Of a stretch of 64,000 nucleotides of DNA, positions 10,665-21,578 are shown one piece after another. The stretch spans positions 682,001-746,000 of the forward strand of contig NZ_JAAIKE010000001.1 of the NCBI RefSeq assembly GCF_010915705.1, read 5' to 3'. Under the pieces are notes generated by a model that saw only the letters and a list, made by a program, of their open reading frames with translations, made no database searches and was not told where the DNA came from. The first letter of the stretch is position 1; each line of letters begins with the position of its first letter. Made by a program: the position numbers and the translations under genes. Origin of the DNA: Pseudotabrizicola algicola (GTDB taxonomy: Bacteria; Pseudomonadota; Alphaproteobacteria; Rhodobacterales; Rhodobacteraceae).

Positions 10665-10749
10665 TGGTGCCCGAGGTCGGACTCGAACCGACAAGCCTTG
10701 CGGCGGCGGATTTTGAATCCGCTGCGTCTACCAATTCCACCACTCGGGC
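10665..10749 (-). tRNA. tRNA-Leu (CAA)
   Basis: The minus strand folds as a class II tRNA: acceptor GCCCGAG/CTCGGGC, anticodon stem GCGGA/TCCGC around loop TTCAAAA (anticodon CAA), a long variable arm, a TTCGAGT T-loop and an encoded CCA. It is the likely attachment site of the element to its left, because the integrase at 8055 and cargo abut its 3' end. No second copy of the 3' half was seen in the window, so attL would be outside. Confidence 0.95.
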
Positions 10750-14463: not shown

Positions 14464-14487
14464 GCCGCCCCGAAGGGCGGCCTTTTT
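14464..14487. terminator. Rho-independent terminator between convergent genes
   Basis: GCCGCCC, loop CGAA, GGGCGGC, then a five-T run. It ends the erpA-like transcript, and with AAA on the other side it can also serve the leftward EamA operon. Confidence 0.85.
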
Positions 14488-15433
14488 ATTCTGCAGGCAC
14501 CGCTGCCGTGCCGGGGCTTGCCTGCCCTTGCGGCAGACGGGCCAGACGGTCTACCCGCACCTGTTCCATCAGCGCGATCCCTCCGGCACACATCACCAGC
14601 AGCGCACCAATCACCGTGCCAAGCGCGGGAATTTCGCCAAAGAACACAAATCCGACGGCAACCATCCAGACGAACTGAATGTTCATCAGGGGCAAGGCAA
14701 CAGGCGCACGCAAGCGCTGCATGACCAGAACCATCGTCCAGCGGGCAAGAAACAGCAGGCCCGAGTAAAGGAAGATGCGCGCCACATCGACCAGCGCCAT
14801 CGGCTGCCAGATCGCCGGCAACATCAAGGCCGCCGCCCCGGCAAGCGCCAGATTGGGATAGAACACCTGCACCAGCGTGTTTGTCTCGCGCCGCGCCATC
14901 AAGCGGGACAGCACGAGCGACACGGTTCCGGCAAAAGCCCCGCAGAACCCGGCCAGATGCCCAAGCGTCAGCCCCGACAATCCCTCGGGAAACAGCATCA
15001 GAACGCCGACCAATCCCAAGGCCAAGCCCGCCCATGCCGCCATATCGACGCTTTCGCCCAGCACATGCCGCGACATCAGGGCGGACATCAGAGGCATCAG
15101 GCCGACAAAAACAAAGATCTCGGCCAATGGTATCAAAGCGATGGCGTAGAAGAAGCCAAGCGACGCCACAACGGTGGCAAGCGACCGCGCCAGCAGAAGC
15201 CCGGGAACGGTGGTTTTCAGGCAGCTTGTGGTGAATATCCCGATCTGTGTGCCCGCGCGCGCCGCCAGAAGGCTGATCCCGGCCATGATAAGGCCGGACA
15301 GAAAGAACACCTGCGGCGCTTCGAGACGGGCGGACAGGTCTTTGACCGTGCCATCTGCCAAAGTCGCGGCCAGTGTCGAAGCGATCAGGAAGGCCACTCC
15401 GAGGACCCAGGGGGTGCGAAGAGTCTGCATCAT
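14486..15433 (-). CDS. EamA/DMT-family transporter of the repeat-peptide unit
   Basis: The product is about 315 residues with ten predicted TM helices in two EamA halves (LIASTLAATLADGTVKDLSA at the start, LMNIQFVWMVAVGFVFFGE in the second half). The ATG at 15433 overlaps the stop of the upstream gene (ATGA); a longer frame to 15574 reads inside that gene and is rejected. The family exports metabolites or amino acids. Third in an operon with the helical protein and the MTSVA-repeat protein, it may export their product. Confidence 0.8.
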   Translation of the reverse strand: MMQTLRTPWVLGVAFLIASTLAATLADGTVKDLSARLEAPQVFFLSGLIMAGISLLAARAGTQIGIFTTSCLKTTVPGLLLARSLATVVASLGFFYAIALIPLAEIFVFVGLMPLMSALMSRHVLGESVDMAAWAGLALGLVGVLMLFPEGLSGLTLGHLAGFCGAFAGTVSLVLSRLMARRETNTLVQVFYPNLALAGAAALMLPAIWQPMALVDVARIFLYSGLLFLARWTMVLVMQRLRAPVALPLMNIQFVWMVAVGFVFFGEIPALGTVIGALLVMCAGGIALMEQVRVDRLARLPQGQASPGTAAVPAE

Positions 15434-16491
15434 TTCAAAGCTCCCCCGATGCGGCCCGCGCGGGAAAATCCGGCGAAGAACCCTTCGAATTCCGCCATCC
15501 CCTCCACCTGCTCCAGACACTGCCGCGCCGGTTCCGAGAGTTTTGCCCAGATCCGCCACCGCATCCGGCTCCAATCGGGGTGACGGGCCTCGCCCATATC
15601 AAGCAAGACCAAGGACAGCTCATGCAGGGCGCTGACTGCGGCACGCGGCTGGCGGATCACCCGCGCCTGCGCTGGCACGGAATGCGGAAAGGCAGATTGC
15701 CCCAGCACGCCCCGCGCCCAGTTCAGCACCAGATATTGGTGGTAATCGTCGTCAAGCGAGATGCCACGCGCACCAGCGACAAAGTCGACCTGATCCGCCG
15801 CGCGCACAACCGCTTGTGACCAAAGCGCCGGGACCTCCTCGCCGGACAGATGAAGCGCAAGCGCGACCTCTGCCAAAAGATCAAGATTCCCCTCGAGCCA
15901 CGCGACAAGCCCCACATGCATCAGGCTCAGCCGCCGTGCCGGATCGCGCGCAATCGTGCGGCGACCGTAATCTGCGGCGTGGAAGACAATATGGGTCAGA
16001 TCATAGGCCGCCCGCCGGTTGGGCAGGCAAAAGGCGGCTGCATTCGCGCCGAACCGCGCCAGCCGCGCCTCCAGCCCCGCATCGTGCCTGTCCAGCCCCG
16101 CCCGGCGCAACAGCAATTCCGCCTCGCCCCGATGGGTGTCCGACAGCTCGATCGAGGGCAAATCCTGCGTTACGACAAAATCGGCAAGCTCGGCCACCGG
16201 AGCCTCGGTCAGACCGAGATCGCGCAGATCAAGCGCAAGCGACAGATACATGCGGTAATACTGCGGGAAGAACCTCACCTCTTGCATCAGGCCCTTGGCG
16301 CGATGGCGCAGAGGCTCCAGGTCAGCTTCAAGGCCGAGAGCGGCCAGAATCTGCAAAAGCTCGGCGTTTTCCTTGAGCCAGAAGGCATCATGCTGGCCGC
16401 GCCTGCGTGTGGCGAACAGATCGATCAGACCGGGAATGGCCGGATCGCAGGATGCGGCCCCCTGCCGCCGTAGCGAGACGATGTTGGTCAT
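15430..16491 (-). CDS. Unassigned all-helical protein of the repeat-peptide unit
   Basis: The protein is 353 residues and predicted soluble and mostly alpha-helical, without TM or signal peptide. Clusters that look conserved are YDLTHIVFHAADYG (about residues 163-176) and DDDYHQYLVLNWARG (about 247-261); their His, Asp and Tyr could line an active site. I recall Rhodobacterales-limited domain families of unknown function for such neighbours but cannot verify it. The ATG at 16491 (MTNIVSLRRQ) is preferred over an in-frame start at 16539. It lies 96 bp after the repeat-peptide gene, beyond a hairpin, and is coupled to the exporter by ATGA. Confidence 0.7.
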   Translation of the reverse strand: MTNIVSLRRQGAASCDPAIPGLIDLFATRRRGQHDAFWLKENAELLQILAALGLEADLEPLRHRAKGLMQEVRFFPQYYRMYLSLALDLRDLGLTEAPVAELADFVVTQDLPSIELSDTHRGEAELLLRRAGLDRHDAGLEARLARFGANAAAFCLPNRRAAYDLTHIVFHAADYGRRTIARDPARRLSLMHVGLVAWLEGNLDLLAEVALALHLSGEEVPALWSQAVVRAADQVDFVAGARGISLDDDYHQYLVLNWARGVLGQSAFPHSVPAQARVIRQPRAAVSALHELSLVLLDMGEARHPDWSRMRWRIWAKLSEPARQCLEQVEGMAEFEGFFAGFSRAGRIGGALK

Positions 16492-16559
16492 GACAGCCCT
16501 ATCTGAAGTCGGGGGCGCGCAAGATGTGGCAGCACCCATGCGCGCCCCTGTCGTGTCCG

Positions 16560-16578
16560 GAACCCGTTACCCGGGTTC
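16560..16578. promoter_or_regulatory. Intercistronic hairpin between repeat peptide and helical protein
   Basis: GAACCCG and CGGGTTC form a 7-bp GC-rich stem with a 5-nt loop, placed between genes 1 and 2 of the unit. There is no T-run, so it is not a standard terminator. It could attenuate or stabilise the upstream message, letting the first product be made in excess. Confidence 0.5.
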
Positions 16579-16587
16579 GCAAGCCGT

Positions 16588-16914
16588 TCAGATTTCGGCG
16601 ACGCTGGTCATCAGGGCAGCCTGAACGCCGGACATCTTGCCAGCCAGATCAAGCGCCGCATCCTCTTGTGCAACCGAGGTCATGGCCGCCGAGGCCACCG
16701 ATGTCATCATGGAGGAGGCCACACTGGTCATCATCGAGGATGCGACCGAGGTCATCATGGACGAAGCCACGCTCGTCATCATGGACGAGGCCACACTGGT
16801 CATCATGGCGGATGCGACCGAGGTCATCATCGCCGTATCTTGTCCCGCCAGCATGTCAGAGACAGCGCCAGTTTCTTCAATCAAGTCAATGCGCTGAGCG
16901 GCATTCGAAAACAT
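16588..16914 (-). CDS. MTSVA-repeat protein, candidate multi-core peptide precursor
   Basis: The protein is 108 residues. Residues 1-28 form a leader-like, acidic N-terminal part (MFSNAAQRIDLIEETGAVSD). Residues 29-84 are seven 8-residue units of the type MMTSVASS, then a 16-residue spacer, and the protein ends in LMTSVAEI, giving eight MTSVA motifs. GGAGGG with good spacing supports the start at 16914, which decides the strand, since the opposite strand is also open. The composition lacks Cys, charged residues and aromatics in the repeats. A leader plus identical Ser/Thr-rich units resembles precursors of modified peptides with several cores; a repetitive structural protein is the alternative. 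Confidence 0.8.
   Translation of the reverse strand: MFSNAAQRIDLIEETGAVSDMLAGQDTAMMTSVASAMMTSVASSMMTSVASSMMTSVASSMMTSVASSMMTSVASAAMTSVAQEDAALDLAGKMSGVQAALMTSVAEI
16663..16830 (-). repeat. Seven in-frame 24-bp tandem repeats
   Basis: Seven consecutive 24-bp units each encode (M/A)MTSVA plus two variable residues (SA, SS, SS, SS, SS, SA, QE). The DNA units differ mainly at synonymous or Ser/Ala positions, so the protein repeat is kept. This suggests expansion by replication slippage under selection on the peptide. Confidence 0.9.
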
Positions 16915-17113: not shown

Positions 17114-17893
17114 ATGCTGATCGCGACGTTCAACATCAACGGGATCAAGGCAAGGCAAGAGGCCCTGCCCCGCTGGCTGGCGGCGTCAAAGCCCGATGTG
17201 GTGTGTCTGCAAGAGATCAAGTCGGTTGATGAAGCTTTTCCGCGCGCGCTTTTCGAGGACATGGGGTATCGCGTGGAGACGCACGGGCAGAAGGGCTTCA
17301 ACGGGGTGGCCATTCTCTCGCGACTGCCGCTCGAGGATGTCACGCGCGGTCTTCCCGGGGATGACGGAGACGAACAGGCGCGCTGGATCGAAGCCACAGT
17401 GATGGCGCCGCGCCCCGTGCGGCTGTGCGGGCTTTACCTGCCCAATGGCAACCCTGCCCCCGGCCCCAAATACGAATACAAACTCGCGTGGATGGCGCGG
17501 ATGGAAAGCCATGTGCGCGCGCTCTTGGCCTTGGAAGAGCCGTTCATCTGCGCCGGTGATTACAATGTAATCCCGCAGGCACAGGATGCCGCCCGTCCGC
17601 AGGCATGGGAGGAGGACGCACTTTACCTGCCGCAGACCCGTCAGGCCTTCCGCCGCCTGCTGAACCTTGGCCTGCTGGATGCCTTCCGCGCCTATGAACC
17701 CGGACCGGGACATTACAGCTTCTGGGATTACCAGGCCAATTCGTGGGAACGGAACAACGGTATCCGCATCGATCACCTGCTGCTCTCGCCCGCCGCGGCC
17801 GACAGGTTGACCGGCGCTGGCATAGATCGCGACGTGCGCGCCGGAGACAAGCCGTCAGATCATGTTCCGGTCTGGATCACGCTGGATGCCTGA
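17114..17893 (+). CDS. xthA: Exodeoxyribonuclease III
   Basis: The 259-residue enzyme has the AP-endonuclease/Mg site set: FNINGIKAR, VCLQEIKS, GLYLPNGN, GDYNVIP, and the C-terminal RIDHLLLS and SDHVPV. It would act in base excision repair by incising abasic sites and degrading 3' ends. Its last 34 bases overlap the convergent rarD gene. Confidence 0.92.
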   Translation: MLIATFNINGIKARQEALPRWLAASKPDVVCLQEIKSVDEAFPRALFEDMGYRVETHGQKGFNGVAILSRLPLEDVTRGLPGDDGDEQARWIEATVMAPRPVRLCGLYLPNGNPAPGPKYEYKLAWMARMESHVRALLALEEPFICAGDYNVIPQAQDAARPQAWEEDALYLPQTRQAFRRLLNLGLLDAFRAYEPGPGHYSFWDYQANSWERNNGIRIDHLLLSPAAADRLTGAGIDRDVRAGDKPSDHVPVWITLDA

Positions 17894-18795
17894 CGCGCGC
17901 GGCCCCGTGCGCGGATGCTCGAGACGGTGAAGATCACCAGAGCCGTCCAGATCATCGGAAATGCCACCAAGCGCGCGGCGCCGAACGGCTCGCCGAATAC
18001 AAAAACCGCAATGATGAAAATGATCGTCGGAGAGACGTATTGCATCATGGCGATGGTCGACAGGCGCAAACGCTTGGCTCCGTTGGCATAGATCATCAGC
18101 GGCACCGCAGTCACCAGACCCGTCCCGATCAACAGCAGATCGTCGCTCGTCACGCCTTGCGCAAAATGTGGCGCGCCTTGGCTGTGCAGCCAGACCAGAT
18201 AACCCAAGGCAAAGGGTGCCAGCAGCATGACCTCGAGCGTGAAGCCCTGATTGGGGCCGATCGGCAGCGACTTCTTGAGATAGGCATATATGCCCCATGT
18301 CACCGTCAGCCCCATCGCCACCATCGGCACCCGCCCGGCCTCGACCGTCAGCAAGCCAACCGCTGCCGCCGCCAGACCGATCGCCGCCCATTGCGCGCGG
18401 GTCAACTGCTCTTTCAGGACGATCCGCCCCAGCAGAACGCTGAACAACGGGTTTATGTAATAGCCAAGCGCCGCCTCCAGCGCATGACCGGAACCGATTG
18501 CCCAGACATATGTGCCCCAGTTCACGGAGATCAGTCCGGCCGTCGCGGCCGCCATCATCAACATGCGCGGCGTGCGCAGTGCCTTGCGCAAATCCTGCGT
18601 GCGCCCCAGCCAGATGATCACCCCAAGCCCCACCGGCAAAGACCACAGGACCCTGTGCGCGATCACCTCCAGCGGAGAGACATGCGCAAGCGCCTTCATG
18701 TAAAGCGGCAGGAAGCCCCACAGAAGATAGGCGCATAGCGCAAACGCAAAGCCGGAGCGGCTGTCTTCATTCTTCGGGAGGGATGCATCTGACAT
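17860..18795 (-). CDS. rarD: RarD-family EamA transporter
   Basis: The 311-residue protein has about ten TM helices and the RarD signature (FALCAYLLWGFLPLYMKAL at the N-terminus, SVNWGTYVWAIGSGHALEA, QYVSPTIIFIIAVFVFGEPF). The start at MSDASLPKNED is used because the frame further upstream is not hydrophobic or conserved. RarD proteins are named for chloramphenicol sensitivity; the transport substrate is unknown. It follows the cupin gene in the same direction. Confidence 0.85.
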   Translation of the reverse strand: MSDASLPKNEDSRSGFAFALCAYLLWGFLPLYMKALAHVSPLEVIAHRVLWSLPVGLGVIIWLGRTQDLRKALRTPRMLMMAAATAGLISVNWGTYVWAIGSGHALEAALGYYINPLFSVLLGRIVLKEQLTRAQWAAIGLAAAAVGLLTVEAGRVPMVAMGLTVTWGIYAYLKKSLPIGPNQGFTLEVMLLAPFALGYLVWLHSQGAPHFAQGVTSDDLLLIGTGLVTAVPLMIYANGAKRLRLSTIAMMQYVSPTIIFIIAVFVFGEPFGAARLVAFPMIWTALVIFTVSSIRARGRARQASSVIQTGT

Positions 18796-18853
18796 GACGC
18801 TCGCATAGCGCTTTGCCCGCGCCGCCACCAATGCCATTTTGTGACGGGAACAA

Positions 18854-19270
18854 TCAGCGCGGCAGATCGAAATTCGGCGCGGCCAGGACAAAGCCCGCAA
18901 AATCAAAGCCCGGGCTTACCGTGCAGGACACAAGGCTATAGGCCCCCAAAGACCGTGCCGCCTGCCAATGCCCCTTTGGCACCACCACCTGCGGCGACTC
19001 GCCCGCCAGAACCGACGGCCCAAGACGATGGTCCACTGCGCGCGTCTGCCCCACCGAAAGCACCACCGGCGCACCGGCGTGCCAGAGCCAGATCTCGTCT
19101 GCATCCACATGATGCCAATGGCTGCGCTCGCCGGCCCGCAACAGGAACAGGATCGCCGTGCCGCTTGCGCGCCCGCCAATCTCTGGTCCGGCCCATGTCT
19201 GGCGATACCAGCCGCCCTCGGGGTGCGGGGCGAGATCGAGTCGAGCTATGATCTGGTCCGCCTCGTCCAT
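18854..19270 (-). CDS. DUF985-type cupin protein
   Basis: The 138-residue single-domain cupin has APHPEGGWYRQTW at the start, the metal-site-like RSHWHHVDADEIWLWHAG, and VVVPKGHWQAARSLG plus VSPGFDFAGFVLA. These match the DUF985 (YML079-like) family, whose members form dimeric beta-barrels of uncertain reaction. It lies 58 bp upstream of rarD and probably shares its transcript. Confidence 0.85.
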   Translation of the reverse strand: MDEADQIIARLDLAPHPEGGWYRQTWAGPEIGGRASGTAILFLLRAGERSHWHHVDADEIWLWHAGAPVVLSVGQTRAVDHRLGPSVLAGESPQVVVPKGHWQAARSLGAYSLVSCTVSPGFDFAGFVLAAPNFDLPR

Positions 19271-20678: not shown

Positions 20679-21578
20679 TTACCTTGGGTCGGCCCTCATG
20701 GAAAGGGCGCGCTTGAGCCTTGCCTCGCGTGCGAAGGTGTAAAGCCCCGAGCCGATCACCAGACCGGCCCCGGCAAGCATGAAGGCATCGGGACGCTCGC
20801 CAAGGAAAATCGCAGCAAGGATCATCGCGAAGACCAGTCGGGAATAGCGAAACGGGGCCACGACAGAGACCTCGCCCTTCCGCATCGCGGCGGTGACCGC
20901 ATAATAGCCCAAAAGCCCGGTCACCAAGGCGCCAGCAAGATCGATCCAGCGCGACGGGTCGATGGGCGCCGGCGCTTGCCCTTGCACCGCCATCAGAATG
21001 GCCCCTGCCGGAACCAGCGCCAGATAGGCCCATGTGGTCAACTGGAAGGTGCCTATGCTCGGCGGCATCATTCGGGTGGCAAGATCGCGCGCGGTCAGGA
21101 TAAAGACGCAAGCCACTGTCAGCAGTCCCGCGAGCCGAAAGCCGTCGGTGCCGGGCTGCAAGATGATCATCACCCCGGCAAAGCCCGTGGCAATCGCGCT
21201 CCAGCGCCGCCAACCCACCTGTTCGCCCAGAAACAGGGCGGCGGCCAAGGTCACCACCAGAGGCGATGCTTGCAAAAGGGCCGCGTTCACGCTGAGAGGT
21301 ATAAGCGCAAGGGCCGTGATATAGAGCATCGTTGCCCCCGCTTCCGACAGGGTGCGCACCGCTGCGGCCCCGCTCAGGGCGTGGCGCGTCAGGATAGGCT
21401 GCCCCAGACGGGCGGCGATCAGCCAGAAAACGACCGCCCCGCCCGCGCCCATCATCGCAATCACCTGCCCCGGCGGCATCGCTGTGGCGGCGCGCTTGAG
21501 AAAGAGATCCTCGAAAGCAAAGGCAGCCATGCTGGCCACCATCAGACCGGCGGCGCGGGGATTGTCGGCACTACTCAC
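20679..21578 (-). CDS. EamA/DMT-family transporter
   Basis: The 299-residue protein has ten TM helices in two EamA repeats (ALIPLSVNAALLQASPLVVT in the first, VVAPFRYSRLVFAMILAAIF in the second). The substrate is unknown. Its ATG overlaps the fur stop by 4 bp (ATGA), so it is translationally coupled to the metal regulator. Confidence 0.85.
   Translation of the reverse strand: MSSADNPRAAGLMVASMAAFAFEDLFLKRAATAMPPGQVIAMMGAGGAVVFWLIAARLGQPILTRHALSGAAAVRTLSEAGATMLYITALALIPLSVNAALLQASPLVVTLAAALFLGEQVGWRRWSAIATGFAGVMIILQPGTDGFRLAGLLTVACVFILTARDLATRMMPPSIGTFQLTTWAYLALVPAGAILMAVQGQAPAPIDPSRWIDLAGALVTGLLGYYAVTAAMRKGEVSVVAPFRYSRLVFAMILAAIFLGERPDAFMLAGAGLVIGSGLYTFAREARLKRALSMRADPR

Follow-up and report, generated by a model that had tools for sequence, protein, structure and literature searches.

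This analysis identified a conserved pair of genes, one encoding a repeat protein and the other a DUF6902 protein, within a three-gene unit on the minus strand of the window (the whole stretch of DNA analysed, 64,000 nucleotides), the third gene encoding an EamA transporter. Judged from the sequence, it is likely (probability approximately 0.6) that the repeat protein and DUF6902 form a multicore RiPP-type system, in which DUF6902 modifies, and probably epimerises, each core. The repeat protein would be the multicore precursor, with a leader followed by tandem units that each contain a selected five-residue core; DUF6902 would bind this precursor and modify its cores, the likeliest reaction being L-to-D epimerisation of one residue per core. 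We infer that short peptides would then be freed by host proteases and that EamA, where present, would export the released peptides.

Pairing and distribution of the repeat peptide and DUF6902

The unit had been described in an earlier note on this DNA, and its basic layout is borne out by the sequence and the open reading frame coordinates. The repeat protein (16588-16914, minus strand) has 108 amino acids, in which the eight MTSVA motifs, here the putative cores, and the 28 leader-like residues preceding the first MMTSVA (16831-16914, minus strand, ending MLAGQDTA) can both be counted. The DUF6902 protein, a predicted modification enzyme of 353 amino acids, is encoded at 15430-16491 (minus strand), and its TGA is overlapped by the ATG of the EamA/DMT transporter gene (14486-15433, minus strand), giving the ATGA coupling that had been reported.

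The proposal had been staked beforehand on co-occurrence of the genes in other genomes, and this held. An encoded leader and core precursor lies beside the candidate modifying enzyme, which is the anatomy of a RiPP system, in 170 out of 173 distinct loci, the repeat peptide being upstream of DUF6902. The script, which required at least two units, found 163 of these, its loci with few units being re-read, and seven were added by eye (L167, L115, L121, L153, L159, L201, and L214; there are two units in L115, L121, and L201, and runs of N in L153 and L214). Using one repeat peptide as the query, matches were present in 93 of the 108 DUF6902-positive family genomes and in none of the 286 that are DUF6902-negative. 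Among the 15 positive genomes missed by this query, 12 carry a peptide whose core is different or weaker, G054 and G683 are without a peptide, and G535, which has a partial gene, was left out.

No peptide is present at L106, L130, and L132, the L132 match being below the DUF6902 cut-off. The DUF6902 genes of L106 (4004-5071) and L130 (3980-4996) have no EamA, no repeat peptide shows within 900 bases upstream of either, and the shared conserved residues are partly replaced in both. H167, chosen after the alignment was seen, is missing only in these two out of 193 aligned DUF6902 sequences, a set in which some of the 173 distinct loci are present more than once and from which sequences of 300 amino acids or fewer are excluded. 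It is likely that L106 and L130 encode decaying or repurposed enzymes.

Queried with the protein from the window, DUF6902 is present in 21 of the 101 relatives searched. The Pfam model found it in 5 of 385 genomes across the class, four of them over the cut-off and these four all in the family of the window; two queries found none in the plasmid collection. It is present in 108 of 394 family genomes, sampled at nearly one per genus, and in none of 14 control genomes, and if the multicore reading is true then approximately one quarter of the sampled genera in a major marine and freshwater family possess a peptide-modification system not described before. The GTDB genomes, from which the best 80 of the 389 confirmed relatives were kept, supplied named loci in, among others, Pseudotabrizicola, Gemmobacter, Roseovarius, Sulfitobacter, Shimia, Salipiger, Tateyamaria, and a strain of Ruegeria pomeroyi. 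The record of one locus (L210) is titled Enemella evansiae TN21-6, an actinobacterial name, and is probably mislabelled.

Architecture of the putative precursor and selection on its core

The plan of the precursor is a leader followed by n units of G(D/E)x(V/T)xx, a pentapeptide core, and xP. The last residue of the first stretch is M, L, or A, the P is there in 748 of 913 units, and 771 of 851 unit spacings measure 20 or 21 residues. There are from 2 to 20 units per precursor, variation in repeat number being a check proposed in the earlier note, and in 101 of the 163 precursors found by script the last core counted runs exactly to the end of the protein. In 96 of the 163 the leader has the motif M(T/S/N/Q)A..(K/R), which occurs in 1.5 % of shuffled leaders; the window peptide is without it. 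In the window protein, the inner units recur every 8 residues without the G stretch, and most units lack G(D/E); the G-Q-D-T-A of its leader lines up with the G(D/E)x(V/T)x found in other genera. Since the script counts only units with a G stretch, MTSVA loci were counted with two units. In the DNA of the window, TRF finds the array with a period of 24, 5.8 copies, and a 75 % match.

The 163 precursors have 52 core consensuses by script, for example FSSGS, FTSWS, FTSGL, FITSC, and MTSVA. The first core residue is F or M in 160 of the 163 and the third is S, T, or C in 161. MTSVA, the retention of which the earlier note proposed to check, is kept only in the genus of the window, with other cores in the same register in other genera. 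Cores are mostly alike inside a precursor and unlike between genera: 112 of the 163 precursors have no difference among their counted copies and, with units defined by their flank alone, the core difference is 0.234 within genes versus 0.576 between genes. Within the named set, cores tend to track genus (FTSGL in five out of five Shimia, FSSAS in three out of three Gemmobacter), with mixed cores in Sulfitobacter, Tateyamaria, Marivita, and Roseovarius. Core homogeneity is not strict, as the precursors of L155 (FSSGS then FTTSV), L157 (FTSGS then FTTSC), L098, and L202 have two kinds of core. At L213 (Ruegeria pomeroyi SZCCDBG043), the precursor upstream of 6001 has FSSGS first and last and five FSTSC inside. 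It is possible that the block-wise two-core precursors of L213, L155, and L157 are intermediates of core replacement. Core doublets were also observed, in the precursors of L037, L044, L050, and L063, where a second core comes directly after the first, e.g. MFTSGLVQMFTSGL.

Comparison of codons shows that the pentapeptide core is the part that is kept and that it is under selection at the protein level. Across all pairs of the eight window MTSVA motifs there are 140 codon comparisons, 69 identical, 71 synonymous, and none with an amino-acid change; the zero follows from picking exact MTSVA motifs, and the informative part is the many synonymous differences. In 148 precursors, with units grouped by likeness to the commonest core (two or fewer differences), a choice that makes non-synonymous changes look rarer and masks any second type of core, synonymous codon pairs make up 42-54 % at core positions 2-5 and non-synonymous pairs 1-5 %. 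The non-synonymous share is 10 % at core position 1 and 38-49 % at flanking positions -5 to -1. Recent DNA duplication as the only origin of the repeats is not favoured, due to the synonymous divergence among copies.

It is highly improbable that the repeat protein is an unmodified structural or phase-separating protein, for which DUF6902 would be a chaperone or binding partner. The regular spacing of the units would suit such a protein, as would the structure predicted for the window protein, a single long helix, but the pTM of that model is only 0.36, and exchange of the best-kept pentapeptide between genera is not what one expects of a scaffold. In addition, the charged conserved residues of DUF6902 are common to DUF6895, which lies next to small peptides that have one or two such cores.

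Multicore RiPP precursors are known from the cyanobactins, dikaritins, and orbitides. The precursors described here are like these in having a leader, repeated cores, a conserved flanking stretch, and a variable core; the enzymes there are different, however, and the cores beside DUF6902 are mostly uniform inside a gene and differ between genera. Yeast alpha-factor is a tandem peptide pheromone precursor, likewise with many copies of one short peptide, spacers, and a sequence dependent on the taxon, whereas no dedicated protease or receptor was recognised in the DUF6902 unit and the window protein has, by eye, no apparent signal peptide. The differing cores between genera favour a recognition role, and the tendency of copies in a gene to change together fits what a signal and its detection would require. 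More speculatively, and with the odds well against it, Rhodobacteraceae may make short taxon-specific D-amino-acid peptides, in many copies per ribosomal precursor, that are modified by DUF6902 and released as signals, in a bacterial counterpart of tandem pheromone precursors.

A literature search, in which few subscription papers were covered, found no publication on DUF6902, five of its repeat sequences, or repeat-precursor RiPPs in Rhodobacteraceae, and one paper for DUF6895. Recurrence across many genera of one family, with differing cores, suggests a family of modified peptides not yet described. If so, the approximately 50 natural core variants could serve directly for working out which substrates a new enzyme family accepts.

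DUF6902, DUF6895 and the candidate reaction

The helical protein, left unassigned in the earlier note, is a member of DUF6902 (PF21843, E 6.8e-98; 328.3 bits against a Pfam cut-off of 27, residues 1-345 on profile 1-351). It also belongs to a superfamily with the related DUF6895 (PF21836, E 1.1e-17; 64.8 bits against a cut-off of 23.8). The homology of the two families is seen in hhalign (probability 97.3, E 2e-11), and they have E44, Y163, H167, G176, D204, E208, Y250, and H251 in common. The DUF6895 member in L230 scores below the DUF6902 cut-off, and the two are therefore distinct families.

A DUF6895 member is reported, by the title of a paper listed among the references of PMC13352647, to be a lasso-peptide epimerase (Shi et al., ACS Catal. 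2026). Epimerisation is the likeliest reaction of DUF6902 because of this report, the homology to DUF6895, and the shared acid/base residues. As the leading chemistry it has roughly even odds, being drawn by homology from a distant relative with 20 % identity over 181 columns. If DUF6902 is an epimerase, it would offer a way to place D residues in repeated short peptides.

The same precursor and enzyme could instead carry out a different reaction, such as dehydration of Ser/Thr/Cys, cyclisation, or acylation at the third core residue, and this is rather unlikely. Modification of a side chain would agree with the near-constant S, T, or C at core position 3, and the low identity to DUF6895 leaves room for other chemistry, as does the predicted fold of DUF6902, which may resemble alpha/alpha toroids such as those of terpene cyclases and prenyltransferases, a fold present in many kinds of enzyme. 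Against this, epimerisation is the sole function seen reported in the superfamily, in the title cited above, and only the two DUF models are above the Pfam cut-off for the window protein, with no cofactor-binding domain. Sequence searches of the PDB gave no relative of DUF6902 (best E 0.29) or of DUF6895, Foldseek gave no match at E of 0.001 or below against the PDB and viral libraries, and PADLOC and PHROGs gave no match to DUF6902.

The neighbourhoods of DUF6895 are consistent with DUF6902 as a modifier of peptides. A small peptide directly precedes the DUF6895 gene in five of the seven loci examined (L230, L231, L264, L265, and L266); in L022 there is a small ORF a little upstream, and in L267 a 63-amino-acid peptide is three genes upstream. 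These loci span three phyla, Pseudomonadota, Actinomycetota, and Bacillota. The linked peptides have an aromatic/aliphatic stretch near the end (e.g. GPWFVLAG, AWDKYVLVV, and ATKHFLLRG). DUF6895 is a homologous enzyme with the same conserved residues and a leader-type peptide as its usual neighbour, although its partners have one or two W/Y/F-rich C-terminal cores, in contrast to the long tandem arrays of DUF6902. Lasso systems differ further, as lasso genes were not recognised beside the DUF6902 of the window: the genes scanned at 12.8-18.9 kb (Exo_endo_phos, Fe-S_biosyn, HD/HD_assoc, EamA, and DUF6902) include no lasso cyclase or leader peptidase, and the unit does not class as a lasso peptide cluster. 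One DUF6895 locus (L230:3918-7720) has a pair of similar small peptides together with a C39/C70-like cysteine protease and unassigned genes, and looks like a further peptide cluster.

The EamA transporter and the surroundings of the unit

The suggestion of a peptide-modification and export cassette is supported in the conserved pairing of peptide and enzyme; EamA is a frequent accessory only, and the conserved unit is peptide plus enzyme. EamA is immediately downstream of DUF6902 in 87 out of 114 loci, 57 of them with the ATGA overlap. It was not found in the other 27 (absent in 26 of 113 testable loci, and one of the 114 too short to tell), and export by EamA is therefore not obligatory. An orthologue of EamA (at least 42 % identity) tracks DUF6902 in 11 of 31 relatives, all of which have DUF6902, and in the remaining relatives only paralogues match, at 34 % identity or less. 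The sole exception to this agreement among the 31 is G063, with a marginal DUF6902 match (E 5.4e-4) and no EamA match.

It is unlikely that EamA is in the operon only as a neighbour with no related role. The loci without it, in many of which a convergent Fe-S gene or an HD-domain gene is next, would fit such a neighbour, but its position in most loci, frequently with overlapping codons, and the restriction of the orthologue to DUF6902-containing relatives argue for a connection. EamA proteins are known for small metabolites, and a pentapeptide would be an unusual cargo, which counts against the export step.

Two hairpins are predicted in the intercistronic region between the first two genes (16492-16587, minus strand; z -3.57 over 16485-16600, as stable in 1 out of 200 shuffles). 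The hairpin of the earlier note is supported at the window, but a conserved regulatory hairpin as a general feature was rejected, z being below -2 in just 23 % of 150 gaps. Similarly, the hairpin said to close the unit is present (14464-14481), but it scans as a terminator on the plus strand only, that of the convergent Fe-S gene; a minus-strand terminator at this position is not in the terminator scan list. No protease or other peptide-modifying enzyme was found among the three genes of the unit (Pfam and NCBIfam) or the four flanking genes (Pfam).

A recently acquired island is not favoured because the flanking genes recur, with an exonuclease-like gene on the upstream side at 78 of the 114 loci and an HD-domain gene on the downstream side at 58 (counted from mechanical ORFs on flanks of unequal length, with cluster names assigned by eye). 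Rfam at gathering scores found nothing over the window except one tRNA, and tRNA-Leu (CAA) at 10665-10749 (minus strand) is the sole tRNA found in it. Near the unit there is a further EamA gene by Pfam (17863-18906, minus strand) and a second transporter that is alike by eye (20679-21578, minus strand), which together with the EamA of the unit makes three DMT-type genes within approximately 7 kb.
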